Source of the DNA: Spirogloea muscicola
Lineage: Eukaryota; Streptophyta; Zygnematophyceae; Spirogloeales; Spirogloeaceae
Direction: 5' to 3'
Assembly (NCBI GenBank): GCA_009602725.1
Contig: WELB01000077.1
Span: 414,761-445,061, forward strand
Length of the DNA: 30,301 bases
Position numbers and translations under genes: made by a program
Notes under the pieces: generated by a model
Seen by the model: only the letters and a program-made list of their open reading frames with translations
What the model was told of the DNA's origin: nothing
The model's database searches: none
Shown: positions 2,263 through 30,301 of the stretch, one piece after another
Layout: each line of letters begins with the position of its first letter
Numbering within the stretch: the first letter of the stretch is position 1

Positions 2263-2926
2263 TTTGTAGAATGCGGGCTGCTCGTTGCACGCCCCAAAAC
2301 GGTCTTCCTTCGTGCCACTGAGCACAGCGTATCTTCCGGTCGCCCAAAATCTGCCCTCCATACACTCCGTAGTCCTGCTGTCAGCGGGTCCGTAATTCAC
2401 ACCGCTTTTAGATGCGCATGCTTACATTCCTTTGGGCGGCGATTGCAACTGGGATACTCCGTGTTAGTATGCACATTATAGCGACGATATGGAGAGATCG
2501 TTGCAGGACCTCAGCGCCGCACGATGGGCTGGCCCGGCACGCCATTGCAAAACTGCAGCTCCCGTGGCCCCTTCGAGTGCGAGGCCACTTTTGGGTCTGC
2601 ATTCTCGTCATTATTTTAACTCCAGCCGTTGCAGGGGCCTTCGGGTTCAGAAGCTCGTCTTTGCCACACCACGCTGCGTTGATGCAACGTAAGAATCTGG
2701 CAGTAGAGGGCGATGGCTTTGATAGGCCCAGCGCAGGAAGAAGAATGAACGAAGCCCGAAAGGGCCATTAAAGCGCTAAAGCACACAGCGATTAAATGGC
2801 CACTGGGTGCTCATTATCCCTTTGTTGAGCAGCACGCCTGCAGTTGCCACAGTTGCTTGGCTATGTCGTGCCAACTCCATGGTCCTCGTGCTGCCAGTTG
2901 CTAGCGGCGCTCACTGCCGAACGGCA
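2263..2926. other. intergenic, gene 1 to beta-galactosidase
   Basis: These 664 bp lie between the stop of the upstream gene and the ATG of the beta-galactosidase gene, both on the plus strand. They should hold the 3' UTR of the first and the promoter and 5' UTR of the second. I see no convincing TATA box, no RNA gene and no reading frame that resembles a protein family. Confidence 0.5.
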
Positions 2927-2991
2927 ATGGCGCCCGCCCGGCCGACGGCGGCGGCGGCCGCGGCCGCGGCCGTGGCGGTCCTGCTCGCCTT

Positions 2992-3022
<31 letters not shown>

Positions 3023-6000
3023 ACGGCGAATGCGAGCTTCGACCACCGGGCGCTGCTCATCGGCGGCGAGCGCCGCATCCTCGTCGCCGGCGTCGTCCAC
3101 TACGCCAGGAGCACGCCGCAGGCATGGCCGCCATGAAGAAGCTCTGATGTATTTCTGTAGCTTAACGAAAGGCCGCTGGTCCCTCTTCAGGCCGTGAGCG
3201 CCTTCGGCGGCGTCTGCTTTGGGACGACAGCCGCTGGCCAACGACCTTTAACTCCTGAACCCTGACTTTATATCCTAACCCTGAGTCCTAACCCCTACAT
3301 TCAGGCTGACCGTGTACTCGACCCTGCAGATGTGGCCGCGCCTCTTCGCCAGGGCCCGGGCCGGCGGCATCAACGCCATCCAGACGTACATGTTCTGGAA
3401 CGCGCACGAGCCCCGCCGCGGCGAGGTAAGCCCGGCCACAGCGCGCTCGCTGCACCTGTGGCAATTTGCCAGGTTGTTGTTGTTCTCTCAACGAGGCAGT
3501 CGTTTGCCAAGCCCAATTCTGAGCACTTCAATGTCGGTTGACGATCCCGGTGATAATGAATCACTTGCCGACTCCAATTTTGAGCACTTGGGTCTTGGTG
3601 GACAATTCCGTGATTGCGAATCAAACTTCAACAATCCAATTGGCCGTTGTGTGGTGGCCAGTACGACTTCAGCGGGCGCCTTGACGTAGTGCGCTTCCTC
3701 GAGCTGGCGGCTGACTACGGCTTTGTTGTCAACCTGAGGATTGGGCCCTACGCCTGTGCTGAGTGGAACTATGGGTGAGGCAGGGTTTTGTGCAATTGAA
3801 AATGCATAATTTTGTTGTGTAATGGTAACAATGCTTGGAGGCCTGCATGTTTTGTTGGGGCAAAGTTGGCAACCACCCCTGACGTGCACAAGTAGGGTCG
3901 CAGTGCACAATCAAGGACAAGTATATAGTTCACAAGTCACGATCATATGAACAAGGTTCAAATTTTTCATAGAAGTCCAGAGACTCTCACCTGCTGGCTT
4001 GCTGTTGATGCTACCCTCACACTTACAGCAGTTGGCCCCACCTGTGCGATGCAGCGGGCTGCCCTTCTGGCTCAGGGACATTCCTGGCATGCAGTTTCGC
4101 ACTGACAACGAGCCCTTCAAGGTATCAATCAAGGACGAGTGACATGCGTTTGCTGGTCCAAGTATTGCAGCACAAAGCGCAGCTCCATGTTTGACTAGTT
4201 AATGAACTCTGTTGTGAAGTGCAGAGCTAACATGCTTGGGAAGGCCAGACTGTGTGCCACTAGACAATAGCCGTGGCCCCATGACTTTGAGCACTTGCCT
4301 CTCTAAGTGGTCCTGCGCTCTGTTGCTCTGATTACTCAGGCGGAGATGCTGCGATATATGAAGTACGTCGTTAGGAAGCTAAAGCACCACAAGCTTTTCT
4401 CCTGGCAAGGTGGCCCCATCATACTTACTCAGGTGCTTATGTGCAGCATCCACTGGCATGACTTGCGTCATTATAGTCACACAAGTTGCGGCTTTGAGTT
4501 TCCATTTATATGGCTTGCTACCGACTTGCAGTAGTGCCAAGTGATCCTCAGTTGTGTTACTTGAGTTGCCACCACCTTGAGATTTACAACACGTATTATT
4601 AAGCTGCTGCCATCAAGTAGCATAATGGGGAGAAAGTCAAACAAGTGCAAAGTGAGATGCTGTTGTAGATGGGGTGCAGGTGGAGAACGAGTATGGTAAT
4701 GTGGAGGCTGACTTTGGACCAGGAGGTGCAATATATGCGAGGTGGGCTGCAGAGATGGCGCTCAGCCTGGATACACGCACGCCATGGATGATGTGCGCTC
4801 AGCCTGATGCTCCAAAGGATGTGGTAAGAGGAAAGTCTCTCAGCACCTTCTCCACACGAGAGTATGTTAAGTTTGTCATTGCAATGGGTACTCCTAGGAA
4901 GGGTGTAAGGTACAAGTTGGGGTCTACTATGGAGTCTCACTCCTTTGCCTTAGGGAATGCACTGTTGGTATTGCACTCCTGACATCTTGAGTACAATCAG
5001 GACACCAGGCCACAGCTTTCGATGCAACTTGATCCAAAAGTCATTGGTTGCGTAGACAGATAGTTGTATTCGTGCCATCCACTTAATGCTCCAGCATCAG
5101 ATCTGAGTTACTCTTAAGCAAGCTTGTAGAACATGAGGAGCATATTGCCCATGCCTGTAGCACAAATTAGCCTAAGACTGTGATCTGCTTACAAGACACT
5201 ATGTGCTCCAACTTACACCGGAATTGAACATGTTGTTTGTGGTAGATCAACACGTGCAACGGTTTCTATTGCGATGGCTGGAGGTCCAACGCTTGGTCCA
5301 AGCCGAATCTTTTCACAGAAAGCTGGAGTGGCTGGTACACACTTGCATCGAGCAACTGTGGCTGTCATGGGCACTCTCACATCCACTGCATTACTATACT
5401 GGGTTGCAGAATAGAGTTCCATTGAGATTACAGCGATTTGTATCCCTGTCGGCTGTGTTGCAAGGTTTGTAGCTTGGGGCCAATCACTCCCAGACCGCCC
5501 CACAGAAGACCTCGCATTCGCCACTGCCCGATGGTTTGCCCGTGGAGGCTCCTACATCGCCTATTACATGGTTTGTTTCAAAACTATTAGCATGAAACAT
5601 TCATGATTGCAGCTGCAGCTGCTTGTATCACAGCTACTTCGGTGTGGCATTCTCCTATTCGCCCCTTGCCTCTCCTGCTTGGCAAAACAGTACCACGGAG
5701 GCACCACTTTCGGACGCTACACAGGAGGCCCTTACCTGACAACATCATATGACTACAGCGCACCACTAGACGAGTTCGGTACGGGAGAAGACTTTCATGC
5801 ATGTGTTGCCTTGATGGTTTACAATGTGTCGTAAATTGAGCCAGCAGCAAAGGACGTGCACACAGTTGGCAAGATGACATACTGCATGCAGGTTTGCCAA
5901 AGGAGCCTACGTATAGTCATCTTGCTGCTCTGCATCGGGTGATTCAAGACTGCGAGGACGCACTCACCATGTCAGAGGAGCCCTTGCAAGCCATGCTGGG

Positions 6001-9000
6001 GGAAGCACAAGAGGTTGCTTGTCTAATTCAGTTAGTCACATAAGCCGTGCCGTATCATTGTCCTTGTTTGCTTACCTGGTACATGGCTGGCAACTCAATT
6101 GCCAAAATCTGGCTGCCAATAATTTCTTCCAGATATACTCAAGCATGTGAGCCCTTACCGAAGTTGTTGTAACAATCCTGACCATATCAGTAACATTGGA
6201 CCTCATACTTTGTCAGGTACATCTGTATGGGCAACTCCTAGACGCATTCTCGGGATATACAACGCACTCAACGCCATGTGTGGCATTCCTTTCAAACTTT
6301 GGGGGCTCGTCGGAGACGGTTGTCTTCAGAGGACGAGAATATCTCTTGCCAGAGTGGTCTGTCAGCATTCTGCCCGATTGCAGGAACGTAGCCTTCAACA
6401 CCGCTCATGTAAGGCCTCCTTCGCATCAGTGCCACTGCAGCAGCGGCGCAAGATGTATGCCTGCTTGAGGAGCTCGTTGCCAGCATCATAGCATTATGTA
6501 TTCCTCAAAATATCTTCGCTATTCTTGCCTACCCTCATCACAGCATCGCAACCCACAAAGCCAGACTTTGCAATGCAGGTGAAGAACCAGACAACGTTGA
6601 TGGGTTGGACTCCTGCCGTCGACACAGAAGGCTCAAGACATAGTGGAGCTGCCGTTGTGGACAACTGGAGGGGGAAGGTCTTGCGTGCTATCACCACTTC
6701 AAGCACCCAGAGGCTGCCGAGGGCCTCTAAGGCCTGGGCCTGGAAATGGGCATCGGAGCCAGTGGGACAGTGGGGCAATGTCACGTCCTCGCCACTGCCG
6801 CTGGAGCAGATTATCACCACCCGGGACTCTACCGACTACTTGTGGTACATTCACAGGTATGGTCAGGGCGCAGCTGAAATTATTTCAAAATCAGCATAAA
6901 TACAAAGAGACGTTACTTAGGGAGTTGCCTCGAGTCTACTTTAAAATTCTCTAATGCATGTCTATGAAGCTTTCCCTGGCTGTAGCTTGGAGCTTCCTGA
7001 GGAGCTCGGGCCTGTGAATGTGACCCTGGAGATCACAAGCGTCGGTCATGCGCTCCACGCTTTCATCAACGGGGATCTTTCAGGTTCTTGCCCCAGTTGG
7101 TCACGTCCACCAAATAAATACTTACCTGTCCAAGTGCACTGCAATATCCAGATTTTTGTCGCTTGTACTGCCCAGTCCAGGTGACAGAGTACAGAGTTGC
7201 TATTCTAGGTGATTCAGAGGTTATCCGCAGGAAGTTTTTTTAGTGAATGCTGGAGATGCAGCGTGGACCTCACATGAACAAATTGCTGCACAATGAGTGG
7301 GACAGGAAGTGCCATAGGTGGGGCCATCGTTACTCTCCCCATTAGCCTGAAAGGAGGCAAGAACGAGATTGCTATCCTCAGCATGACCGTGGGCCTCTGG
7401 GTGAGCTTCTACAGAGCCTCTTATCTATCTCTAAACCACTCAATTTGCAGGCCACTGATGCAGCAGTTGCAGCTGAGCATCTTATTAACCAGGCTGGAGG
7501 AATAACACTTGCGGTAGAGTGCATGCACTTGCATGATTGAATCTCAGGTTGACGTTGCTGATCATGTGTTCAAGCTCGCTGACATTTCTACAGTCGAGGG
7601 TTGAAGACCAAGCAGACACCTGCTAGACACCTGCTAGATACACCTGCTAGATATGCTGCTACACATATATATATATATATTTATTTATTTATTACAAGCT
7701 CACCGAATGTCCACACAGACCTCTTAAGTTGGCAGCTATGCACGTCTGACAAAGAGCAGACTGACTGGAACCTCTGCATCGCAGAACTACTTTGCCCACT
7801 TCGAGACTTGGGAAGCTGGAATCCGTGGAAGCGTGATCGTCAGAGGTCTGCCTACAGGGGACCTAGATGTCAGCTCTACAGGATGCTGGCACCATCAGGT
7901 TGGCAACATTGTGGCTATCTCTTGACATATATTGTGCACCTTTGGATTCACCAACTTAGAAGAATCTGCAGGCTGATGTCGGCGGCCTCTTCAGAGGAGC
8001 ATTGTACATCCGAGCAAAATGGTGCCATGTTGATGCAGAACACAGAGGAGGCTGTGTCCCTAACCAACTAAAGCACGCAAGGAAGCAAGCAACCCATTCA
8101 ACGTGGCGATTAAGCAAGCAATCATCCAATCAAATTAGTCATGTATTTAATCAACCCAACAACGAAATGAAGTAAACCAACTAACCTGAACAAGCTAAAT
8201 CCTGCAGGTGGGCTTAAGCGGTGAGGAGCTCGAGCTGTACAGGCCCAGTCGTTCAAGGAGTGCAAGTTGGCACTCGTCTCTGGCAACATATCGTCCGCTG
8301 ACTTGGTATAAGGTAATGACCATTTGCTTCACTTCAAAAAGCACAAGTCAGTGCTTAGCAAACACTCTAGCTTATGACAACCCTTGCATTTATGACCTGT
8401 CATCAGTCCTCCCTTATATGGGCACTATTGACCTGTGCACACGCACACCTCGGAACTGTTGAACAATGGAAATCGTTTAATTCTCAAGCAGTAGCTTTTG
8501 ACTTCCTAGAGCTGTGTGCAGCGTACACCTAGCGATGACATAGCTTGTGACGCAGGTCAATTTTGACGAGCCCGAGGGCGACAGACCTCTAGCAGTGGAC
8601 CTGGGGAGCATGGGCAAGGGGTTCGCGTGGGTCAATGGACACGCGCTCGGCCGCTTCTGGCCGAGCATGATCGCGCAGCCGGCAGGCGCACCCTGCGACA
8701 TCACATGCCCCTACCAAGGATCCTACAATCCTGCCAAGTGCCGCCATGGCTGCGGCCAGCCCACTCAGCGCTGGTAAGGAACTCGTACCTCAAAACCCAT
8801 ATTGGCTTGGTGCTCGATGCATGCAGCGCAGCCAAGCAAGCTCTGCAGCACTGCAGTTTTGTATGCGCAGAAGTCGTCAAGCAAGACTGAGGTGCTTACG
8901 TCCACAGGTACCACGTACCACGGGAGTGGCTGAGGCCTGAGGATAACCTGCTGGTGCTCTTTGAGGAGATGGGAGGGGACCCATCACTGGTCTCGCTCGT

Positions 9001-9805
9001 CGAGCGCGCGCCCAAGACAATCTGCGCGAGCCTGCGGCTCAGATCCTCTGCCACCAAAGCCGACCACAATCACAGCCTCAGCGTGAGCATGGTTACGCGT
9101 GATGAGGAGGAGGAGGAGCTGGAGCTGAGCTGCGCGCCTGGCCAGGAGATTGGCGCCCTTGACTTTGTCGGATATGCTGACCCTGCTGCCGTGTGCGGCC
9201 GGCTGGACAAGGGCGACTGCTACGCACCTGACGCCAGCGCAAAGGAGGTGCCCATTTCACACTACTTGTAGTTTGGATGTGTACCTATTGTGGAGGCTGC
9301 AGAAATTGTTCCAATATGACAGAAACTTATAGAGATAGAGTTTGGCATTTAAGTCAGAATATAACGCACAATGCTGTGCACATTATGGTGCTTTTGTTGG
9401 TAGTATTCGTACCAGCTTGCTGCCAGCATAGCTGACGTGCACTTGGTGGTATAATGGCTGCCTCACTCATGGCTAGCTCTGCTTGCTTGTCTGCAGGATG
9501 CCGAGGAGCAGTGCCTGGGCCACCGGCGCTGCTTGATTGCGTCACGCAGAGACGCTTTACATTCTGGCAGAGCTCGATGTCAAGGCAAGGCCAAGGTTTT
9601 CGTTGTCCAAGCGAGGTGCAGAGATGCAGACAGCCATGATGCAAATGGAATGACGAGCCCACTAGACAAGGTCTTGCAGAGCCAGGGAAGAGCGTGGTGG
9701 GAGAGGAGCGGATCACGCTGGCAGAGGCCTGTCGCGAGGGAACTCCTTGCATGGAGCTCGAAGAGTGCGAGTCGAGGAAGTAAAGGTCACCCACAATTTC
9801 AGTAA
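2927..9805 (+). CDS. BGAL: GH35 beta-galactosidase with C-terminal SUEL lectin domain
   Basis: The enzyme removes terminal beta-galactose from cell-wall polysaccharides, arabinogalactan proteins or N-glycans, and should be secreted. Nineteen exons join in frame: 2927-3121, 3330-3425, 3662-3774, 4055-4121, 4340-4432, 4680-4823, 5246-5334, 5465-5570, 5691-5778, 5892-6013, 6217-6408, 6579-6856, 6986-7083, 7306-7400, 7785-7898, 8208-8312, 8556-8773, 8908-9247 and 9497-9805, giving 953 residues. An Ala-rich signal peptide occupies about residues 1-36. GH35 motifs follow: [25 protein letters not shown] (likely acid/base E192), LFTESWSGW (likely nucleophile E261) and YHGGTTFGR. The jelly-roll part carries LTWYK and [19 protein letters not shown] Cys-rich SUEL lectin domain spans about residues 813-892, followed by an unusual 61-residue tail. 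Nineteen exons match the largest land-plant BGAL genes. Intron 1 starts with GC rather than GT. Confidence 0.93.
2996..3022 (+). repeat. (GCG)9 run in beta-galactosidase signal peptide
   Basis: Nine uninterrupted GCG codons encode poly-Ala inside the predicted signal peptide. Such runs slip easily, so length variation between strains is likely. Confidence 0.9.
3122..3329 (+). other. GC-AG intron 1 of the beta-galactosidase gene
   Basis: Family similarity requires STPQ to join MWPRLF. The only phase-0 junction is CAG|GCATGG to CTGCAG|ATGTGG, so the donor is GC. Read-through of the intron would encode AWPP and then stop, which happens to mimic the next exon. Confidence 0.75.
3514..3635 (+). 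repeat. imperfect 61-bp tandem duplication in beta-galactosidase intron 2
   Basis: Two copies offset by 61 bp begin CAATTCTGAGCACTT (3514) and CAATTTTGAGCACTT (3575). They share further blocks such as GTCGGTTG/GTCTTGGTG and TGAT(A/T)(A/G)(T/C)GAATCA. The copies are clearly diverged. Confidence 0.7.
7616..7650 (+). repeat. three copies of ACACCTGCTAG in beta-galactosidase intron 14
   Basis: The 11-mer ACACCTGCTAG occurs at 7616, 7627 and 7640; the third copy follows a 2-base insertion. An (AT)8 run at 7665-7680 and TTTA repeats follow. Confidence 0.9.
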
Positions 9806-10026: not shown

Positions 10027-13000
10027 CTATGTGGCCCAAAGCTTGAGGACTGGATCTTCGCCATAAGAGGCAAGGACATTCCGGTGTGGGTGGTGCGCCA
10101 CGCCTATGACCTCCTTGTCGTGGATCTGTGAGGGCACCCGCCAGAGTGAGGATGCAGACAAAAATCTAAATCACGCAATTTCTGATTCAGATTTCAGCAA
10201 AGTAGCAGCAGTGCTCCTATTTATGCAGCTTACAGAAGTAGCTGGCTTTCACAAGCACCAGGCTTGGCTGCAACTTTCCACAACCAAAGGATGTAACTGG
10301 ATCTGCTCAGTGGATTGCTATTAAAAGCTTACCTTCATGAGATGCTCAAGCTTTCCAGACTGGTAGCCAAAGCAATACAGGTTCCTGCGCATCATGAAGC
10401 ACAAGCAATGCAAGACATTAGAGGCATCCATATTGACCAGACTATGCAGGCGCCAATCTGAATGTAGGAGTCGTGGTGCTATAACATCAGACTTGGTGAA
10501 AGAAGGTCAGCTAGCGCAGTTGTGTCACCTGTCTTCTCCTACACAGTAGAACCAGTCGCCTTTTGGTGACACGCACGCCCCCACAAAATCGCCACCTTCT
10601 CTCTTGCCGGATGAGAAGCTCTTAACCACCTGTGTGGAAGTACTAGCTGAAGGGTATGAAGTGACCAGGTGAAGCAACGCCAAGCTGCAAACTGTGACAG
10701 CAGCTCACACAGTAGATACTACAACAGAGCATATATTCTATGTTATTATTCAAGAGAGTGCATGGCACGCTGCACCCAAGCTCAATACCGGCCAAGAAGG
10801 AGAGCACAAGACTTTGAGCAATGCAGCAAAATGTCCTACAAACACCTGTCCCTGCAGTGTCATGACGAAGATGGTAGAAGAGCGGCTGCACACGACAATG
10901 TGGTCCAGATTCTTGGGCATCACATGCACAGAATTGACTGTAGCATCCCCGCCCTGCAAGTTACTGGCAAGACATCAACAATCTGAGCAACAAATACAGT
11001 GACTCCCAGTAGTGGCTGCCCAAGCGACACAGCCACTACTTCTTTGTGCCGTTGATATAACGCCTGGCATGCATTCTGGACGTTGATTGACGATGAAATG
11101 GCGAATGACAGTTGGTGATGCTCTGGAGTTAAGGTGTATAGGATGTTCAAGGTGGGTTTGGGCATAACATGAGTCCCTTGTCCCTTACCCGTAGAGGTGG
11201 TGGGGGCTTTAAGGTCTGCAGGCAGTCTGCGCTTTTGGCATCCCAGACCTGCCAATCCAATCGTAGCTCAGCTGTCACTATGCAAATGGTTTAGGGAGGT
11301 CGCAAGCCAAGCTTAGCCTAATCAATAATCAGCAATGAGGCACTCGCAAGCAGTAACAGAGGCAGTGATTGAAGAAGAGATGGCGCCATTGTGCTGGACG
11401 ATACCACCTGGCTTGAGAACCCTTTTCTTAAAGGCAAATTACCTTTACAGTGCCATCACTGGACGCAGTGACAACTCTCCCGCCGTCGCTCGTATAAATA
11501 GCATCGTTCACATAGGAACTGTGGCCACGGAACTCCTTCAGGGTCTTGCCCGACTTGAGGCCGTGTATTCTGCAAGCAAAGAGGTAAAAGCAAGACATGA
11601 GACAAGCACAGTGGCATCTTCCACATGTTCGCATGCATAGATAGAATCAAAGAGGCAGACAATGGAACAGACACCTGCTTGTTCTCTTCCATCTTGAATG
11701 AGTATGTAATCATTCAGGTTATCACAATTGTGACGTTCATGTCATGAATAAGCAAGATACAATGCAGTATTGATGCAGGTGTGCAGCACAGGGAATGGCT
11801 TGCGACCTGGCAAGGGTGTCGAACGAGGCAGAGAGGAGCTGGGAACTGTCCCGAGAGAAGCAGATGGAAGTAACTCCCTGCGAGTGCGCATTCTCGAACC
11901 GCCTCAGGCACTGGCCTGTCCTCAGCCGCCAGACCTGGCAAGGGCTCGTGCAATACGATTTGAGCAAGTGTTCTGGTTGCAGAAGCTAGTCTTTGTGCAT
12001 TTTACAAGAGGAAGCCCAGTGGAGAAAGAGATACGTCAGGAGAAGCTGGTCTGGTGGATCTGCACTGTGAGACTGTTGTTTGGGTCCTGAGGCCACAAGC
12101 TCCGCAAAACTTGCCGTGCTACACTGCACAATGCCGTTATGAGTGAGTTCGTATGGCTACCTTGATCTTTCCATCCTGAGAGCCGGACGCGAGCATCTCC
12201 GAGTCCTTGCTCCAGTTTACGCACAGCACAGCCTCCTCGTGCATCATGAAGGAGTCCTGTGGGACAGACAACGCAAAGCAAGACAGCTGGCGTGACTTTG
12301 TTGCCAGCCTTAGGCACCTTCATGTGATACTGCAGGTCCGCTACCAGAAGAGCTGACGCCAGTGAGGTAGTTGTGGGGCCTGCTGAGGTATGTAGCTTCT
12401 GAGGATGTGAGGACTTGGTCAGGCATTCATTTCCTCAGCTTTAGAAACTGAGATAAGGACTCACGTCGGCTTGATACTGCAGGTCCTTCTTCAGCTTTCC
12501 CGTTACGTAATCCCAGACCTGCGTCTCATTGAGAGCCCGAAATTGAAGAGGAGTACGGGCCTGCTGTACCTCGAAGAGATGGGTACATTACTGCAGCAGT
12601 AATTTGCAATGTTATCACTCTGTATTTTCAGGCCTCTCCAAGCCTGACTCTTCTACTTGCAGACTCACCTCAATGAAGCCATCCACTGAGGAGGAGACCA
12701 GGCACTGGCCATCTGGCGAAAAGCGAGCACACTCCGGGTGGCTCTTCTTACCAAACTGCAGCATATTGAGGAAATCTTTGACTGAGGAATATTAAGGCAG
12801 CACACACAGGGTCCCAAAAATTCTGCAGGCTGTGGATCTTTGCTAATTGAGTAAAGTCTAAGAGTACGCTGGATCATGCATAAACTCATTATCCTTTCTT
12901 AATTCTGAGATCCAGCGAAATGTGACCAGCGAGGGTGGCATGATCCATGTGCCGACCTTGATGTTGTGCATGACTTGTGTGGGGAAGGTCTCCTCCTCGT

Positions 13001-16848: not shown

Positions 16849-19704
16849 CTACTCTGTGCCGAAGCTGCGGTCCCCTGCATCTCCAAGACCTGGCACGATG
16901 TAGCTGCACAATTTTGGAACACACGAAGAGTCGTGGTCAGCCACTGCAAGGTGGCTTGGAGAAAAGTCCCACAGTCTCACAGGGGTTGATAGTATAATCA
17001 TGTATATCGTGGTACATGATCAAAGTCCTGCACATACCCTTTGTCATTGAGCTCAGGATCAATGACGCCCGTGTAAACGTGGAGTCTGCGAGAACCGACA
17101 GCCGCAAGCAGTCAGACCATGCAAACACACCAGTGTAAGATGCCATCACGTAAGCAGTCCTACATAACCTGCTTCAAGCGTCACCCAGGAGACCCTGGGC
17201 TTGGCTTTGAGCATTTTGCACCAGAGCTCATTTTGTGATGTGAGCTAAACTCTCAAGTAGATCATCACAGGACCTGAATGCAAATGATGCCCATGACTAC
17301 AGAGAATTGTCACAATAATTTTCAACTGAACCAAATTGCTTGGCTAGAGGTTCCCAGGATTATGACGGTTACCCTGGAAACTTCTCCCCGAGCTGTTTAA
17401 GAGCTGGTGGAGCAGCAACCGCTGAGACCTGGCAGGCACCTGACCCGCGTCAGAGCTTGAAGTGTGCAAAGAACGACTCCACATCAATGATAATAAGATA
17501 CATCTTAATGCATATGGTATCCAGTCAAGGTCTCTGAGATGCAATAAGCAGACATTCTCTACCATCTGCTACTGTATCTTACAGGCTTACCACTCGCATC
17601 AGCTTGACGTCAGCACCCCTTCTCACGACTTCCTCAATGGCAGCCACAATAGTACCTCCTGAATAAGAGACAGCCTGTCTCTATAGTGAGCTTGAAACCC
17701 AGTACTAAATGTCCAACAGCTACACCCTGTGGTCATCAGTGGCAACAGAGGCAGCTGACAAAGTGCGCTCCCCCTTACTGAAAATGCACATCTTGTAGTA
17801 GTGGACCAAATCTGTCATCAATGATTCTTGTCTGCATACCTGTGGCCAGCATAGGGTCAGCTATCAGGACTCTTGATCCTTCTGGGAATGTGGTGGGAAG
17901 CCTACACTGCAGCACACACGCTGAAAGCTTCACAAGTTATGAAAGACTGCAACTACTCTACCACTTGACAGCACAACCTGCAAAAGCAGGTATATCGGAC
18001 ATAGCCATCCAGCAGGGAGCTTAAACATCAGACAAGCCACATGAGCTGCCATGCTATCAACTTTGTATGTTGTTCTGAAGACCCACTTGTTTAAATACAT
18101 AGAGGGCTGCAATGTCTCCTCATCTCTTGCATATCCTGCACACATACATTGCCACTAGGCACATTCAAGCGCTTGTTCTAACCTCCTATTGCAGGAAAAC
18201 TACGGCGCGTGCAAAGCCCACAGTGATAGAATCAGTTGCAACTGCAAGCCTACTTCAGCATGCCTCTACTAGATAACTTTTACCGAGATGGTAAGTCTGC
18301 ATTGCAGGTAGAACTGAGGCCATGTGCTCCACAAGTACCAGACCTGCCCTCAATATTGGGACCACCTGTCACTTGATCAAGCACAGACAGACCTCTACAC
18401 ACCTCAACAATCTACATCTTACGCATCTTAAAGAGGTCAGAGGAATGCTCAGGTGAGAACTTAGCATCAAACAGCAAAACTCTAATCAGAGAAAGTGAAG
18501 GCAGGCACTCATGCACCTTGATTGGTTCTCTTGGATCCACAAACTCAACGTCAGCTTGGCCACATGGAGTTTCTACCTGACCTTCCAAGGTCACCTGCAA
18601 CAATGTAGTAGGAAGCCATATCCCGTTTAAGAATCACCTCAACAATTACAATATGTCGCTGTTCTCTGTGTCTGTTTTAAGTAAGCTCGTGCCTGCAACT
18701 AAACCTCTCATAGCAGTATGGCAGCAAGTCGTGTCCTGTATTCAGCCCTATGTGCTGAGGTGAATATACAGCTCAGAAGAAATCGTAGCGTACCAGCCAG
18801 TCTCGCGAAGCTTCATATGTAAGAATCCGTCCCAACTCGCTCAAGGCCGACTCTGCAGTGCTATGAACAAGTCTAAGCACATTGCAGCGTGGAGAAAGAG
18901 CAAAGAATCTTCTTAAAGGCCTGGCTGAACACAATAATGCAGCGTGATGGTGAGTGGATTCTTACTAAATAACGGTGATGGGGTTGCTGAGTTCCTCAAA
19001 ATTGCAACCAGGTGTTTGACGAGAGGGTGTGGGGGCACAAAGACCTGCACTCGGTGGTGCAAGCTGACCAAAGGAGCCTCCCTCTATAGCCTAATGCTTG
19101 CTCATTAAGCTTTTAGCTATTCAAAGGAGTACTATAGACTGCCATTCAGTACGGAATGATTGAGCTACACATAGCATGCAGGCTGTTGCCACAGGCAGCC
19201 CTGAGCCTGCATTGCAGGACTGCCTGAGGACAGGCAAGTGCACCCTTACCAGCATCTGGCCACTCCCGACACGCCGGTTGTCTGCTGCTGCAATCGAACA
19301 CCTTGTCCGAGTTCTAGCCCGCGACTTCCAAAGATATGAGGTCCTTCCGGAGGCTGCTATAGGACTACTGGTGGCTGCTACCGATTGCTGAATTCCTCCA
19401 GCTGTCTTCGCCTGACAGGAGGAGCACCAAGAGCCCAAAGTTGGGCAGGAGCGACTGCTGACGACGAAGAGAGGCTAGACAAAGAGCTGTGGTCATGTGA
19501 GCAGTGTACCAGGGGAGGCGTCCCGGAGGCACCGTGGCCGACATCGAAGGAGGACGGCAAGTGCCAGCAGCGGCCGAGCAACGTCATGTCACTACAAGCT
19601 CGTGCAGTCGTGCTCACCAGGCCCGCGCAGTGGCCGCCACTCGGGCGCCCCACTGCCGCTGGAGCAGCGGCGGCCGCCATCGGCCTCACAAATGTGGCCG
19701 CCAT
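16849..19704 (-). CDS. UPP: plastid uracil phosphoribosyltransferase
   Basis: The enzyme makes UMP from uracil and PRPP, the pyrimidine salvage step located in plant plastids. Twelve exons join in frame (5' to 3'): 19618-19704, 19250-19411, 18966-19044, 18794-18852, 18517-18594, 18284-18365, 18087-18135, 17840-17901, 17591-17658, 17373-17428, 17038-17085 and 16849-16903, giving 294 residues. Residues 1 to about 80 are rich in Ala, Ser and Arg and poor in acids, like a chloroplast transit peptide. The core begins GSGQMLVFVPPHPLVKHL, followed by GRILTYEASRDWL, VDPREPIKVVPILRAG, the PRPP loop DPMLATGGT (residues 214-222), AVAAPPAL, TGVIDPELNDKG, and the uracil-binding end IVPGLGDAGDRSFGTE. The segment after RDWL looks two residues shorter than in land plants. 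The first two exons are the least certain, since transit peptides are not conserved. Confidence 0.93.
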
Positions 19705-20356: not shown

Positions 20357-23300
20357 ATGAAGGGCCACAAGAGGCTCGGTGGCAGGGGCAGGCTGCCCTC
20401 GCGGAGCTCCCGGGCAAGGCCTCGCCGGGTGTCCTTGCCGAAGGCCCTCCTGATCATCTTTGGCGTCATTGCCGTCCTTCTTTACAACGTCGTCCTCCGG
20501 TACCCGTCGGTCCTTGTCGGGAGCAAATTTACGAGGTTAGTGGCTTTGGACTTTAGTTTGGCTGTTGTTCTGGGCGCCGGAAGACTCACTTGATTGCACG
20601 TTCTGTCAGGCAGGGGCAGCTTGTGGAGTTTGGACCTGCTTGACGTGGCACTGAGCGGACTATATCAATTTAATTTCCAATCGTGAGTATATGCTGACTG
20701 CAGGGGTTCTGCGAATTGGTTGCGAGCCTGTCCCCTAAGGGCTGGGCAAGAGGCTGTCGCCGACATCACGACCAAGACTCTATATGACAATTTAGCCTTT
20801 GACAATGCCGAGGGGGGTGTTTGGAGGCAGGGGTGGAATGTCAAATACGAAGTAAGCACAGGCTTGCAGTGTAATTTGTCCGGACTTGATCTGATTGCCT
20901 GATTTGTAGGTTCGGTCTTGCTGGGCACGTCCATCGCACCAAGTAGAACTATCTTCCTGTCCCAGTCTCAGACTGGACATTACAATCTGCACTATGGGAA
21001 GGCATGGAATGGCTAGTTACACAGTAGATTTTGCAGCATGCTAGCAGCGGGTATGAGATGGTCGCTTATCAGAATCTCATTGCAGTGAGTTGACAAAATA
21101 ACAAGGACTTGCGCTCTGTCCTTCAGGGCACGGAGTGGGACGAGGAAAAGCTGCAAGTCTTCGTAGTGCCCCATTCGCATAATGATCCGGGCTGGTTGCG
21201 CACTGTTGAAGAGTATTACAATGAGCGAACACGAAACATCCTCAATGTCATGGTGGCTGCTCTGAAGCAGGTGTGTGATGCATTGAAGAATTCTTATCTG
21301 TCTTGCTGTCAAGACGCGCAAGGCTTGTGCTCCCAGCACGTATTTATAATCCCTCCAAGGGAGACCATCCTTCTTGCAGGATCGCAGGCGGAAATTCATA
21401 TGGGAGGAGATCTCATACTTGAAGAGATGGTGGCAAGATGCAACCCAGAAGCAAAAGCAAGACTTCATTTCTCTAGTGAGAAATGGTCAACTCGAGATTG
21501 TGGGGGGCGGTTGGGTCATGAATGACGAGGTCGTCCCGCTGCCCTTGACAAGTAACAACCTCCTAGTATTTGTTCGTTGTACCTACGAGCTACTTAGTCA
21601 TGCAGTTGGCAATGGACCAAACCAAGTGTTTTAAGACCTTGTCAAAGGAAGCATGTGCTCGCTTTTTGGCTACGGAGGGCAGATTACTTCGGACGACTGC
21701 TGCTTTGCGTCGCTGATCTAGTTTCTGTATTTCTGCGCAGGCCAACTCACACTACTTTGCTATTATTGACCAGGTGACTTCTTTGCTCCATAGCCCCCAC
21801 GACCAAGTTTGTAGGGATGCACTGCCAGACTGCTCAGATTCATCGTGAAACGAAGTTAAATTTATTGTTATTGATGTGGTACTTTGACTACTGTGCTGGA
21901 TGTGTGCCCCTCCTGATTACACAGATGTGAGCACCACACAATCTATTGGTTGAACAAGTACCTCTGGCACCGTCTCCCTGACAAATTTAATATGATTGCA
22001 TGCATTGCAGATCATGGAGGGCAACACTTGGCTTTTTGACAACATAGGCGTTGCTCCTAAGAACGCATGGGCCATTGATCCATTTGGACACTCTCCCACA
22101 ATGGCCTACATATACCGCCGCATGGGTTTCAGTAACATGCTCATACAGGTCAGACGAGATTCTACCTTTCATCCCCCTGCAGAGTGTTTCCGTCATTGCT
22201 TGTCATGTGTTTGACAGTATACTTGGTTAGCTCAGTCATCTCAAGGGGATTGGATTTTGCAGGACCTTGGTCGTGGCATGCATGTGTACTTGTGCTACGG
22301 TGGATTTAGTTGTATTTGGCATATGTGGGTTCCCAAGTCTGCCAGTGTAGCACCTCTTAGAGGGACTTCATGGAGAGAAATGAGATAAGCGTGGATGGCT
22401 GCAACAGGGCCCTGGCTCCTCCAGATACCAGATGTTCCGCAATCCTCGCTTGACATGCCTTGCTCTGATGCAGAGGACTCATTACGAGGTCAAGAGAGTG
22501 CTTGCTAGGAATCGCAGTCTGGAATTCAACTGGAGACAGGCCTGGGATGCACACAAAGACACAGATATGTTCTGCCACATGATGCCGTTCTACTCTTACG
22601 ATGCCCCACATAGCTGTGGACCGGACCCTGCCATTTGCTGCCAGGTGTGCCAACCAAACATAAGTTGTTGCTATTGCTTGTATGATGAAAGAGTGTGCTG
22701 CTGGTTGCAATTTCAGACTTATGGGGCACATGATAGAGCTACAAAGCCTGGGGACTTCATCAACTACTTCACCCTGTTGTGTCTGTGTGCCTGTGCAGTT
22801 CGACTTTTTCAGAATGCCTTCAACAGGGAGTGGATATACTTGCCCTTGGGGTACTCCGCCAGTGGAGATCACAGACGAGAATGTGCACGACAGGGCGTGG
22901 ATGCTTCTGGACCAATATCGCAAGAAGTCAATGCTCTACCAGACAAACTCCTTGTTGGTGCCCTTAGGTGATGATTTTCGCTACTTCAGCGATGTGGAGG
23001 CCGAGGTTCAGTACAGCAACTATGGGAAGCTCTTTGATGTGAGTTTGTGGCTTCAGCACAGTTCACTTGACTCAAGGAGCATGCTTCTTTGCTTGGGATG
23101 CTGGGCACAATGGTGGTCGCTGAAATTTGTTCTCAAGGAAAGGGCAACTAAGTTAGTAAGAGTATAATTGTTTATTCATGTACGTGTTCATAAATTCACA
23201 TCTCTCTTTCTCTCTCTGATATCTGTGTCCTGTTCATGGGTAGCTGCCGTTGGTGGCTGGAACATGATGTGAGGGCACAGGTGTCATCAATCAATTTCAA

Positions 23301-26300
23301 CTGTGTCAAAGGAGTGTCGCTTCCCCGATTCAAGTTGCAGATAGTCAGGAACCCCCTCTGACCATCTTTGTCCTCTGATAGTACATGAATGCGAGGTCAG
23401 ACTGGAATGTGGAGGCGCAATTTGGGACTCTGGAAGATTACTTCACGAGCGTGCGGGCCAAAGCGTCACACAACTCTCAAGTTCTTGGAGACGTGGCTGA
23501 TGTTAATGCTGCTGACAGTGGCGTTGCAGTGGCTCATGCACCTGAACACCTTCATAAAAAGACTGCGGTTGCCGGGTTCCCTTCTCTGTCAGGGGACTTC
23601 TTCACATATTCAGACAGAGTGCAGGACTACTGGAGCGGATACTTCACATCCCGTCCTTTCTACAAGGTTGGTATTTGCATGTGCCCTTCAAGTAGCATGA
23701 GTAGCTGCCATGCCCAATCAAACTATGGAACCTTTGACCTTTAAATTCCGAGGTTCCTTAACCTGCTCAGGGCTCGTTGCCTGGCAACTTCATTCAACAA
23801 AGGTGGAGGGAGCAAGGAGTCACAGGTAGGGTGCATGGGCAGGGACTGCTCTGGCTAACAGCTTGTCCGTCCCTGTTCAGGCTGTTGACAGAGTCCTGGA
23901 GCAGACATTGCGAGCGACAGAGATTCTCTTCTCGCTCTCTAAGGCCTACTGTTCTCGGAACAGTGAGTCATCGGCACCCCTGTTTCTTGATAGGGATGCA
24001 GAGCAGCTGCTGGAGGCCCGTCGTAACTTGGCCCTATTCCAGGTTAGTGCTCAGCTGCAATTGGCAGATCTCCTTACAAAGGCTCGTCTTAGCATGCTTG
24101 GCAAGACTACATGCTATGTAGGAAAGCAGCACCTCCGTTGACTGCTACCATGAGAGCTTGTGAAGGCTGCTCCTCCTTCCTGAATCTCTACGTGGTTCGC
24201 CTAGTATCATCCTTCCAGTTGACCAGCCAGGCACCAAGCGATGCTTGATGCAGGACATAGCAAATGATGGTCAATGATGGTTTCTTTATGCCATAACAGC
24301 ATCACGATGGTATCACGGGAACAGCAAAGGACCATGTGATGGACGACTATGGGAGAAGGATGCATGGTTCTCTAAGGGCTTTGCAGAAGCTGATGGAGAC
24401 TTCGATAACAGCAATGCTTCAGAGATCATCCCAGAAAGGAATCTGCTCAACTTCTGCTCTTGACTTCTTCACGTCACAGGAGGTGTGCTCCACCTTTATC
24501 ATGCACTTGCAGCTGCAAGCACCTGCTGCTTCAAGTGTGTGATAGGTGCTTCCACTTAGAAGTGCGTGATCTTAATCAACGCGCTGAGGGTGTTGATCTA
24601 TCAGATTCGGAGTGAACATAATGTCCTGCCTGAGAGAGCAGTTGTGGAAGTGGACGTAGAGGGCACCAAAAGAGTGGTCATCTACAATCCTTTGGAGGAA
24701 ACCGCCGAGCAGGTGGTTAGCATAGTTGTTGATCACCACCTCTATGGAGTCCTCGATTCCAAAATGAAATGCGTCATGAGCCAGGTGCGCTTTCTGCAAC
24801 TCTCAGCAAGTGCCATATATTCGACCATAGCACATGCTCTTCGCAGTCTAGTGTCAGGGAAATCGATGCGAAGGCGTTTGTACGCATTATTTCCTGTATG
24901 GGTTGCGAATATTCATGTCAGTCCCCTCATTACTAAGCTGTACTTGAATGGCAATTGAAATGACATCATTCTCACCAACTACTTGTGCAATGCGTACTGA
25001 TGGATGTATCCGCGTATCCCTGTATCAGAGGACTCCGCAGTGGAAGCTACACAGCCAGGGACAAAGTACGGGGAAACACATCCTGCACTGGATGGCAAAA
25101 GTTCCACCGCTTGGCCTCCAGGTCCAGATGTCTTGCCCACTGAGTTCCGCAAAGCTGGCCTACGATAAGATTGCAGTCTGCTTGTACAGCTGCTTTGAAA
25201 GAGGCACTGCTCTTACGTTGTCACCGTTGATAATCCTTTCCACTTATGTTGAGGTTACTAAGACCTGCTGACTCCATGGACCCGGCTGCGCATGGGCAGA
25301 CCTACTTCCTTGTGCAGAATGGCGTTCATCGCTGCATGTCGTCACAGGAGTCCACTATATTTGTGTACAATGCTCCTCAAGACTTCCAGTGCCCCTCTTC
25401 TTACCTCTGCCACGCGTCACCATCCAATGACAGTTTGGCATCAATACAAAACACCCACCTCGAGCTGTTCTTTGGCATGGCTGACGGCCTCCTTCGTCAT
25501 GCCAAGGTGATATATGGCATTGCATGGAAGGGGCACAAAATCTCATCAGTTTAATAGTATTGCAGTCTCCGCTGTAGTCAGCGGCACTTGAAATGAGCGC
25601 TTCTTACTGTGCCGTCATTAGTGTAGCTTGCAAGCGATTAGAGCCCAGAATGCTGGTCCTATATTGACCCTTGCGAACTCAAGGCTTGAGATGCCTGTTA
25701 TCAGGTCCTGGCAAGCGGAGCCGAATATCAACTTCAGGAGCAATTTTTGATGTACAAAGACACAAGCAGTGGAGCATATCTCTTCACCCCAAACGGGGAA
25801 GCAGTGCCCATTATCAAGGCAGGGGGACTGAGTCTTGTGACAACTGGACCTCTGGTGCATGAGGTGTACAGCGCGTTCAGATCAACGGATGGAGGCTTTG
25901 CACCGGTCGTCAGGAGGGCCCGTTTGTACGAGGGCAACACAGTCCAGGCTGCCATCGTGGAGATGGCTCACCGGGTGGAGCTGCGCCAAGCAAACTCTGA
26001 GCTCATTGTCAGGTATCAGACAGGAGTGCAGAGCGGAAAAGTCTTCTACTCAGACCTCAATGGTTTCCAGGCAAGCTTCTCCTCCAAATGCGGCTACTGT
26101 ATCACTCTATGCTTCTCCATACGGCAATGTCATGCCACGCAAGAAACACGTGGTCATCCTCATTAGGACAGACAGTCCTCAGTCACATCCGGCACCATCT
26201 CGATGGTTTGGCTGCAGACTGTTCGCCGAGAAACATTGGACAAGATACCTTTGCAGGGGAACTACTACCCCATGCCTTCGCTTGCATTTCTTCAGGTAGG

Positions 26301-28070
26301 AGCCTCGCCTGACAATGTCAGTAATCTGTTGTTTGTAGCACCTGTCTGTGGGTGTGCAACAACCAGAAAGCACAATCATAGTTTCATAGGTTATGTGTCA
26401 GTCAAGATATAGCATAGGTTGTCACAGTCCTTGATGGCTGGCTAGGTAGACTGTAGAAAAGTCTGTGTCCATCTTGATGCAAGCACTCAGCTGGCTCTTT
26501 CATATTTCTTATACGACATGAACATTGGCTGATCACTTGCAGGGGGCCAATGGGGCCCGCTTCTCTGTCCACTCACGGCAGGCAGTGGGGGTGGCCAGCC
26601 TACAGGTCTGACGTTCCCCATGATGCAGTCAGTTAAATGTCCACACGATGCCATCAGCGCAGTCACCAATTATGCCCTCAAACTCAAACTAACAGCGCAC
26701 CCGCTGCCAATGCTCTTTGGCTATGTTGCGGCAGTCTGGTTGGCTGGAGATGATGCTTGACCGGCGCCTCCTCAGCGATGACAACCGCGGGCTGGGCCAG
26801 GTCCTCGTTTGCCACTGAGCGGCGTCAGACTCTTATCGCTGCAAACCCTTTCCCTTCTATGGATATAGACTCAGAAAACAGCATTGCTCGCAGTGATGCA
26901 AAACTGTCGCCCGGTATGTGAAGTACACTTCCGGCTGATGCAGGGAGTCACAGACAATCACCCCGTAGAGAATGTGCTCCACCTCCTGCTTGAGAGCAAC
27001 AGCAGCAGGGCCGAGCCCCTGGCACAAGCTGCCTCGCCCCTCCTCCCCTCCCTCCTCTCCCACCGAGTAGGGGCGCAGCTCAATTATCCTCTTCACGTTT
27101 TTGTGGGTAGGCGGGAGGCCGTGGAATTACTTGAGGTAAAAGCAAAACTCTTAGGCCTGTATTGCATGTTGCCATGTGGGATCCTGTGAGCATGATTGTT
27201 ATGGCAAAGTCTCTGTGAGCTTGCAGAGGTCAGGCAGATTCCAAGTCATGGACTCGACATGCAAATTCTGACACCCTGAGGCGCCTCCTTGGCAACAGAC
27301 GAAGGCTCAGAAGCACTCAGCAATGAGGCCCACTTTTGCGCCGCTACGAGGGAGCCTCCCGTGTGACTTCCACATTGTGAACATGAAGGTCCACCGGCCG
27401 CTCAGCACGGACAAGGGTACTACCGACAGCGATGCCAAGGGTCCCGAGGCAGAGCCCCGCACGGCACTGCTCCTGCAGCGACGCGGTTGGGATTGTGCAT
27501 ACAGGTGCGTAAGCTTTTCACCAGCGGCATTGACGTCGCTAGGCTCACGCACATTTGTAATGGCAAACGGGTCAAGTACTATGGCCACCATCAGTCAACA
27601 TGTTTGCCCCTTGGCTGACTGTGATTCGGCTGGTGCAGCGCCGAGGCAAGGCCTGGAAGGATGGCCTGCAGTGCCACCCTCGATGGCCGCCTTAGCATGC
27701 AGGCCATGTTCTCCAGGTGAACCATCACAGGACTATGCTTGGCACACCTCCCGTTCGGCAGCGGAATCTTGCTCTGATGCAGCCACTTCTGTGGCGTTTC
27801 TCTCCCAGCCCTGATGCTGGCCTTCATGCTCGTGATACGTGTTGTGATTGCAGTCTGATCGCGTCTGAATTCAGAGAGATGCCGCTCTCACTGTTGCACA
27901 AAGAGGACACACTGCCCACAGAGGCGTTGGATGGCCACAAGGTGGGCGAGGCTGACAGCAGCGCCAGCACCCATCGGAAGGACCTTCTGCGGCAGTCGCG
28001 CGCTGTGCAAGGCTCGCTCCAGGTGGACCCCATGGAGATCGTGGCGGTCAAGTTTGACCTTGGCTTGTGA
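20357..28070 (+). CDS. GMII: Golgi alpha-mannosidase II (GH38)
   Basis: This type II Golgi membrane enzyme removes two mannoses from GlcNAc-Man5-GlcNAc2, opening the path to complex N-glycans. Twenty-two exons join in frame: 20357-20535, 20704-20851, 21127-21270, 21380-21529, 21741-21773, 22011-22148, 22474-22644, 22799-23038, 23382-23666, 23881-24042, 24300-24482, 24605-24784, 25029-25121, 25300-25506, 25705-26070, 26218-26295, 26543-26605, 26735-26800, 26944-27135, 27311-27504, 27639-27716 and 27854-28070, giving 1188 residues, close to the land-plant length. A basic 29-residue cytosolic tail precedes one membrane segment (about 30-47). Active-site motifs are PHSHNDPGW (zinc ligands H127, D129), WAIDPFGHS (nucleophile D241) and HHDGITGT (residues 551-558). 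Also clear are [49 protein letters not shown] and GAQLNYPL. Exon 5 is only 33 bp. Intron 15 has a GC donor. Confidence 0.96.
26071..26217 (+). other. GC-AG intron 15 of alpha-mannosidase II
   Basis: The exon ends DLNGFQ at CCAG, the intron begins GCAAGC, and the next exon starts [13 protein letters not shown] after GCTGCAG. Family alignment allows no other phase-0 junction nearby. Confidence 0.85.
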
Positions 28071-28155
28071 CAGCACCGAAGACGATATGCAATTGGCATG
28101 AAACTTTCACTGACTCGGCGGCATGCACTTTTCCACTGCAACAATGGCAGTGGCA
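28071..28155. other. 85-bp convergent gap, alpha-mannosidase II and GnT-II
   Basis: Only 85 bp separate the facing stop codons. The two transcripts almost certainly overlap at their 3' ends, each running into the last exon of the other. Confidence 0.7.
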
Positions 28156-30301
28156 TCAGTGATGTTTCAATTGCAGCTGTGGCTGTGAATGCCGGTACAT
28201 CTGCGCCATGTAGAGGCAGAGCTCGCGGTCGCGACGATCTGACCAGCCGCCGTAGCCCTGGAAGCCGGTTTCGCTGACCGGTACGACGTCTTGCTTGACA
28301 TCTGTGACGTCAGCAGCGCTCGCCACCCATGGCACGAGGTCGGTGTTCTCAATCCTAGGCAGATCCAGCTGGTCGCCAGCGCTGCCGCACTGGCCGGCCT
28401 TCTGGTGCAGGCCGCACTTGCCGAGGTGCACAGCGCTCGAGCGTGCGGCCCGCAGCGAGTGGCGGTGCGGCAGGATGCGGGCAATGGCTGTCCACATTGT
28501 AATGTCCCAATTATAGTCGTCAAAATTGCAGAAGGCCGGCGCCGCCACCCGCAGCACGTTCCAGAAGGTGCGGTTGAAGGCGTAGCCCACGTTGCTCATC
28601 TTGGCAGCCACCAGGCGGCCGGCAGGTGCTAACTCGCCACGCGAGTTCACATCAAAGGGTGCCAGGTTGAAGGCAATGCAGTAGGGGCACAGCGGAGCCT
28701 TGAGGGCAGCGAGCACCTGCGCGCTGCGGTACGCATTGGGGAACAGAAAGTGGTCCTCCTCGAAGAACAGCATGTGGCCGTCGAAGCCTGCGATTTCTGC
28801 GAGGGTCGCAACACGAGGCAAGAGGTGAGCAGAGCATGAGGGATGAGAGATGGCAGGTGCAACAAGAGATGTCTACTCTGCACCTTGCACCAGAGCATGC
28901 AAGGGAAGGCATTGTAGGCCATCAGTGCTGCTGCCTGCGTGGCTCCCTCCTCTATCTTCGCTCTAGCCAGATCAGTGCCGTCGTTGTCAGGTTGAGCCTC
29001 TAGAAATGGTTAGCAATGCCAGTCCAAGTGCAGCACTTCGCTGCTGATGCTGTTTCTTTGCCAGCTTGTGAAGTAAGACTCAAGTCTTATCACACGGGTG
29101 AGAATAAGCCTATATGTAATCTCTGGAACTCACCAGGGAGGCCGTCCCAGACAGTGTTCATGAGCCACCACCAGTGGTGCTTGAGCGACACAATGCGCTC
29201 CTCGCGGTAGTGCCCGTACCGGTCCGGGTTGCCGTGGCAGCCGGGACGCGCTTCGCGGTCTGCAGCATCACGGCAGTCATCGAGGGCCTCTGCAGGAAAG
29301 GTCGCCACCGAACCCTCCCCGGCAACGCCGGCCTTGAAGAGGTGTGGCGAGAACTCGGCATAGATCTGCTTCACTTGGCAGAACCGGATGCCACGCACAA
29401 TGGCGTCCACCTCGTCGTACTGCCCGTCGTGGCTGCCACCGCCACCGCGCCCGGCCGCCGCCCAGCGCGCGTCTGTGCGGCGTCAGCGGCGGTAGCAGAC
29501 TAGGATACGTACTCTTCACTAGACTCGTTGAGCGCCCAAACCCTGACGATGAAAACCTTCGCCGTCCACTTGATCATCCGCAATCTAACAAGCAGAGCGA
29601 CTCAGAGACCATCTGCCAACGGTAGCAGCAAATGCGATCCTCTCTTGCCCATTCCCCTCTAAATCTAGCCCTCTCTCCCTCCTCGTTAGCCTCCTGCCCT
29701 TTGGGTGGCACCAGAAGGCAAAGCCACTGGGGAGGAGGGATGGAGGAAGGGCGGGTGTATACGCGCTACCAGACTGCACGTGTTGTGGACCCTCAGACAG
29801 GCTAGCGACCCGAGCCCAATACACTGAACCTACACACCTGACAATCAGGAGCGTCTCGTTGATGCCCTCCACGTTGGCGAGCGCGTCGACGATCGGGCGC
29901 AGGTAATGTGGGCGGTTGTGCACGTAGAGCACGAGCACGACGCGGTCGGGGGCCAGAGATGGGAAGAGGTCCTGCAGCGGCCGCCAGGGCGCCCGTGTCG
30001 GCGAGAGAGCGGCAGCAAGGGAAGGTGGAGACCGGGAGAGCGAAGCAGGGGAGGAGGGAGGAGATGGGGGGGGTTCAGAAGGAGGGAGGAGGGAGAGCGG
30101 GAGGAGAGGAGGGAGGGAGGGCCACTGGCGGAGGGGCGGCGGCGCACCTGGTTGATGGGCGGCCGCCGCTTGAACTCCGCGAGCGCTGCGGAGCGCGCAT
30201 TGGCGGGCGGGATGGCATAGCCGCCGTACGTGAACCCGCCGCCGGCGTCCGGCGGTGGCGGCGGCCCCCGCTCCTGCTGCGGCGGGTCCCCAGCCGCCGC
30301 C
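28156..30301 (-). CDS. GNTII: N-acetylglucosaminyltransferase II (MGAT2), 5' end outside window
   Basis: The enzyme adds beta-1,2-GlcNAc to the alpha-1,6 mannose arm of the product of alpha-mannosidase II, in the Golgi. Four exons are visible (5' to 3'): 30148-30301, 29838-29971, 29134-29432 and 28156-28796, in frame and giving about 408 residues to the stop. Conserved parts in order are VLVLYVHNRPHYL, ANVEGINETLLIVSHDG, RFCQVKQIY, HGNPDRYGHYREERIVSLKH then HWWW, the metal-binding block FFEEDHFLFPNAY, FNLAPFDV, MSNVGYAFNR, FDDYNWDITMW, SSAVHLGKCGLHQ and GFQGYGGWSDRRDRELCL. The first visible exon is a Pro/Gly-rich stem; the cytosolic tail and membrane anchor lie beyond the window edge. The protein ends in a Gln/His-rich tail (QPQLQLKHH). 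Confidence 0.94.
30014..30121. repeat. G/A-rich tract in GnT-II intron
   Basis: About 108 bp are almost all G and A on the plus strand, with GGAGG and GGGAGGGAGGG units. In the GnT-II transcript it reads as a long pyrimidine tract, but it sits near the 5' side of the intron rather than at the acceptor. The G runs could form a quadruplex or triplex DNA. Confidence 0.75.

Follow-up and report, generated by a model that had tools for sequence, protein, structure and literature searches.

Convergent genes for the consecutive Golgi N-glycan enzymes GMII and GnT-II lie within an old inverted duplication in Spirogloea muscicola

In diatoms, the N-glycan processing enzymes Golgi alpha-mannosidase II (Man II) and GnT II are joined in one bifunctional protein, according to a 2025 review, which gives the Man II/GnT II of Phaeodactylum tricornutum as 1453 aa and its relatives as alike (PMC12507850). 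In Arabidopsis, GMII is At5g14950 and GnTII is At2g05320 (PMC5045529); for this one plant only, these locus names support the statement, made in a preliminary description of the DNA studied here, that the two genes generally lie apart in known plants and animals. For convergent gene pairs in Arabidopsis, PMC2851598 counts 4,987 non-overlapping and 948 3′-overlapping pairs. In searches of open-licence papers, nothing on linkage of GMII with GnT-II came up besides the diatom fusion. Here, we describe a stretch of 30,301 nucleotides from Spirogloea muscicola (hereafter, the window; C77:414761-445061), in which GMII on the + strand and a GnT-II gene (GnT-II-A) on the - strand are convergent, tail-to-tail neighbours. 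In each of the three copies found of this region, on contigs C77, C40, and C55, the two genes were adjacent. We read the arrangement as a genuine convergent pair of ordinary Golgi N-glycan enzymes, fixed before a triplication and arisen by local rearrangement, and assign this reading a probability of roughly 0.66. The features of the pair, in window coordinates, are as follows.

20357..28070, + strand: Golgi alpha-mannosidase II (GMII, GH38), 22 exons; based on Pfam matches to GH38, a reading frame and splice sites shared by 3/3 copies, and the best PDB match
20357-20535, 20704-20851, 21127-21270, 21380-21529, 21741-21773, 22011-22148, + strand: GMII exons 1-6
22474-22644, 22799-23038, 23382-23666, 23881-24042, 24300-24482, 24605-24784, + strand: GMII exons 7-12
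25029-25121, 25300-25506, 25705-26070, 26218-26295, 26543-26605, + strand: GMII exons 13-17
26735-26800, 26944-27135, 27311-27504, 27639-27716, 27854-28070, + strand: GMII exons 18-22
28071..28155, no strand: spacer of 85 bp between the two stop codons; based on its lengths on C77, C40, and C55, with conservation not above that of introns
28156..30301, - strand: GnT-II-A (MGAT2, GT16); based on MGAT2 matches, splice structure, and a PDB match
28156-28796, 29134-29432, 29838-29971, - strand: GnT-II-A exons, with the end of an upstream exon at 30148-30301 running into an N gap

The identity of both enzymes, which the preliminary description had called recognisable from the letters alone, was supported by Pfam and PDB matches. 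The N-terminal and C-terminal domains of GH38 gave above-cut-off matches on C77, C40, and C55. When a 481-residue stretch of GMII was compared with PDB, Golgi alpha-mannosidase II (1hty and its relatives) scored 514 bits, as against 168 for the jack bean enzyme and 146 for the lysosomal one, and by these scores GMII is nearer to the Golgi enzymes than to the lysosomal ones. Conserved stretches of 19 and 10 residues aligned with 1hty, which we take to be the Drosophila Golgi mannosidase II, and presumably correspond to metal and catalytic sites. A hydrophobic stretch near the N-terminus, read in the translation, would fit a type II Golgi protein, and GMII is predicted by homology to remove two mannoses after GnT-I has acted. 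The gene model comprises 1188 codons plus the stop. When its exon borders were transferred by alignment to C40 and C55, the 22 exon lengths, the splice dinucleotides, and the open frame were identical in both. All 21 introns are GT-AG except intron 15 (window 26071-26217), which is GC-AG and has its GC donor in all three copies.

The match of GnT-II-A to the Pfam family MGAT2 was above the cut-off (121.6 versus 27 bits), and the profile was covered nearly whole on C77 (positions 17-60, 61-154, and 154-349). Only one distinct solved sequence in PDB was matched at E <= 0.001, GnT-II 5vcm (presumably the human enzyme), with which the EEDH and DDYNWD stretches align. The structure of the exons at 28156-28796, 29134-29432, and 29838-29971 was also kept on C40 and C55. 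The upstream exon continues into an N gap that starts directly behind the window, and a complete 5′ end of GnT-II-A was seen in no copy, N gaps lying at or near it on all three contigs. Searches with the GnT-II exon patterns gave no match among viral contigs and 12 pattern matches among prokaryote genome contigs, none of them a relative. GMII and GnT-II-A are separate genes on opposite strands with their own stop codons, and no single frame holds both domains. Between the three copies, dN/dS was 0.14-0.16 for GMII and 0.13-0.23 for three GnT-II exons, both at dS 0.13-0.18, and these low ratios indicate purifying selection on the two genes.

The exon models on the three contigs bore out the orientation and the spacing given at the outset: the stop codons lie at 28068-28070 (GMII) and 28158-28156 (GnT-II-A), with 85 bp between them, and the spacer measures 84 bp on C40 and 85 bp on C55. 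Spacer identity between copies (67/83, 76/85, and 68/83) was like that of introns (0.869, 0.833, and 0.824), giving no sign of extra constraint. A 7-bp inverted repeat noticed by eye in the C77 spacer was dropped, being kept on neither C40 nor C55. Assuming 8,000-15,000 genes and 500 consecutive enzyme pairs, two genes named in advance would be neighbours by chance with a probability of 1.3e-4 to 2.5e-4, and 0.07-0.13 cases would be expected over the 500 pairs. A single adjacency found by scanning is therefore notable, not extraordinary.

A new finding is that an old inverted duplication surrounds the pair. Each of its two arms holds a GH35 beta-galactosidase gene and GnT-II; the GH35 gene of arm A (GH35-A) is on the far side of GMII, and two further pieces of genes lie between GH35-A and GMII.

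2780..9268, + strand, ends approximate (limits of the frames matching GH35-B): GH35 beta-galactosidase (GH35-A) of arm A; based on PF01301, PF17834, and mirror-image matches to GH35-B on C40
14770..15150, - strand: LisH-domain open frame between GH35-A and GMII, representing the 5′ part of a gene; PF17814, E 2.5e-11
17778..17936, - strand: exon of a possible uracil phosphoribosyltransferase (UPRT) gene between GH35-A and GMII; PF14681, E 0.0023, 17.9 bits, below the cut-off of 27

A second, diverged GnT-II gene (GnT-II-B) was found on C40 and C55 in opposite orientation, 36-39 kb from GnT-II-A with N gaps included, at the arm B loci (L007, C40:776-786 kb; L013, C55:675-685 kb). On C40, GnT-II-B shares 189 of 345 aligned residues with GnT-II-A; in PDB its only distinct solved match at E <= 0.001 was again 5vcm. 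Judging by borders set by eye, GnT-II-B seems to have retained the first and third of the three introns seen in GnT-II-A, but not the second. Its partner on C40 is GH35-B, which adjoins it tail-to-tail with about 406 bp between the GnT-II-B stop and the stop of the last GH35-B frame. A full comparison of open frames, made for C77 against C40, gave inverted matches for window 2780-9268 (GH35) and 28159-30300 (GnT-II), and for the stretch between GH35-A and GnT-II-A it gave no inverted match at E <= 1e-5; the mirror image itself was seen on two of the three contigs, C40 and C55. All 5 listed GHD-domain matches and all 13 MGAT2 exon matches of the genome fall at the two arms. With two unrelated families found at the same pair of mirror-image positions, coincidence is a far less likely explanation than segmental duplication. 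GMII was detected in arm A only, none being found in arm B on C40 or C55. The C55 copy of GnT-II-B carries an in-frame TAG near its C-terminal end, where the C40 copy is open, and this may reflect recent decay of one copy.

The region is present three times. C77, C40, and C55 each carry GMII, GnT-II, a GH35 gene with the GHD domain, and the LisH domain. Beyond window position 13000 the blocks stay collinear up to the window end, their DNA being about 82-92% identical, and dS between copies is only 0.13-0.18. Three loci were found for a second GH38 family and six for GH47. These counts look like a genome triplication, an event that we take S. muscicola to have undergone. In PMC12866927, the species is named among those with duplication or triplication events. 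The suggestion that the pair is fixed in this lineage was thus upheld insofar as fixation before the triplication is supported. Since two tested neighbours were kept too and dS is low, the three copies say only that the pair is older than the triplication; they show inheritance, not selection on the pair, and for the same reasons we set aside retention on three contigs as support for selection. In a separate observation, on two contigs (C22:670-753 kb and C9:1140-1233 kb) about 72-82 kb separate the second GH38 family from a GH47 alpha-mannosidase, whereas the third copies of the two are on separate contigs, C17 and C6.

These observations suggest a structural route to the present order. The starting block would have held a GH35 beta-galactosidase gene and GnT-II with their tails facing each other, and its duplication in inverted orientation would have produced arms A and B. 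GMII, the LisH-domain gene, and the possible UPRT gene now stand between GH35-A and GnT-II-A; they may have been inserted there in arm A, or the ancestral block may already have held them and arm B lost them. We slightly favour loss from arm B, because losing redundant copies is easier than inserting several genes into a short gap. With insertion and loss alike, the history of the adjacency is local and structural, and no special function need be invoked. The neighbourhood would have no dedicated regulatory role; each gene would have its own promoter at its far end, the 3′ ends would probably overlap, and GMII and GnT-II would meet only as proteins in the Golgi.

Several points weigh against this account. 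The GHD search is blind to GH35 genes without that domain; on C77, arm B would be hidden by an N gap of about 16 kb (C77:486408-502392); and scattered inverted matches between C77 and C40 occur at several places from 36.8 kb onward, which we read as putative repeats. A search of arm B for relics of GMII exons and of the LisH-gene and UPRT-like pieces returned three weak matches (E 0.03 to 0.07), treated as chance, and no convincing GMII relic. The low chance of adjacency for two pre-named genes, about 2e-4, also counts here, and the diatom fusion of the equivalents of GMII and GnT-II suggests that a close link between precisely these two enzymes can be favoured.

The surroundings bear on whether the pair belongs to a larger cluster. 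Exon-by-exon searches for four families, GnT-I, GH47, GT61, and GT10 (PF03071, PF01532, PF04577, and PF00852), which can miss genes, gave no match near the pair. The nearest match on the contigs of the pair was GT61 at C55:85060, about 0.63 Mb away, and GH47 and GT10 were on other contigs. GnT-I was found at one locus only (L020, C44:607460-609630), unlinked to the pair. Copy number within this one pathway is uneven, with one locus for GnT-I, three for GMII, and at least five for GnT-II. Plant-type metabolic gene clusters bring together three or more unrelated pathway genes, and among the four families searched no further pathway gene lay near this pair. Of the proposal of a small pathway cluster, the adjacency itself and its fixation before the triplication are supported; a wider cluster was not seen, the matches to GnT-I, GH47, GT61, and GT10 being elsewhere. 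Both GMII and GnT-II depend on GnT-I (PMC12507850).

Linkage of the two genes might nevertheless have been kept by selection, if co-inheritance or shared chromatin balances consecutive enzymes. GMII and GnT-II do act in consecutive steps, adjacency of a pre-named pair is improbable by chance, the pair is kept on 3/3 contigs, and diatoms fuse both enzymes; we nonetheless consider such a cluster unlikely, given that the neighbours GH35-A and the LisH gene are also kept on three contigs, that a dS of 0.13-0.18 leaves little time for loss, that GnT-II-B stands without GMII, and that GnT-I, needed by both, is on one unlinked contig only. Quite doubtful, too, is the bolder view that the pair is an old selected streptophyte two-enzyme cluster predating the inverted duplication, which together with the diatom fusion would mean that linkage was favoured independently more than once. 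An assembly artefact or chimaeric join, for which the preliminary description had allowed, has next to no probability: N gaps do lie nearby, one directly behind the window, but the same junction of 85/84/85 bp recurs on three contigs, with spacers differing at 11-19% of aligned positions.

Regulation through the 3′ ends was the other proposal, with overlapping transcripts, natural antisense, or polymerase interference keeping the enzymes balanced or causing them to be used alternately. With 85 bp between the stops, longer untranslated ends must enter the other gene, and when five polyadenylation-like motifs were sought over 900 nt behind 6/6 gene ends, the sole occurrence was a TGTAA 428 nt behind the C77 GMII, inside GnT-II. 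That scan had no positive control, its motifs may not be those of this organism, and it did not locate transcript ends. The spacer, moreover, lacks extra constraint. According to PMC2851598, the mean expression correlation in Arabidopsis is 0.024 for convergent pairs less than 400 bp apart and 0.014 for random ones (P = 0.50); for 3′-overlapping pairs it is -0.019, with higher than average abundance, so a regulatory role would be unusual. These averages speak against coupling as a default and are silent on this particular pair. We thus find the suggestion that overlapping 3′ ends couple the two genes weakened, regard expression coupling of the pair as possible and unsupported, and hold 3′-overlap regulation to be decidedly improbable. 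An ordinary convergent pair placed by local rearrangement is the reading that we retain.

The neighbouring genes were surveyed after filtering open frames by length and low complexity and, on the far side, by conservation; of the frames that passed, 67 of 71 were scanned on one side and 51 of 87 on the other. On the first side these gave Pfam matches to GH35, GHD, LisH_TPL, and TilS_C, and on the second to pectinacetylesterase and Ribosomal_60s. The LisH domain was also matched on C40 and C55, plus once on C4; no other part of the gene matched a family, and we take it to be SMU1-like. A frame at 18916-19083, picked by eye as a second UPRT exon, matched no family.

What the pair signifies would depend on its relatives. 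If other Zygnematophyceae keep it amid shuffled surroundings, GMII and GnT-II would be a rare instance of genes for N-glycan processing that are linked without being fused, and would offer a natural test of the idea that linkage keeps successive Golgi enzymes in balance. If they do not, the locus would be a clear example of segmental duplication and gene loss placing functionally related genes together by chance.

Among known systems, the closest parallel is the diatom Man II/GnT II, in which, according to the review cited above, the same two consecutive Golgi enzymes are physically linked in a distant lineage. There, one transcript encodes a fused type II protein with Man II N-terminal and GnT II C-terminal, whereas Spirogloea has two genes on opposite strands, and their tail-to-tail order cannot give a diatom-like fusion by read-through. 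The Arabidopsis GMII and GnTII genes belong to the same families and have the same functions by homology, but lie on chromosomes 5 and 2, judging by their locus names (PMC5045529). The close convergent pairs of Arabidopsis resemble the Spirogloea pair in orientation and short 3′ spacing; here, however, the products share a pathway and act in sequence.

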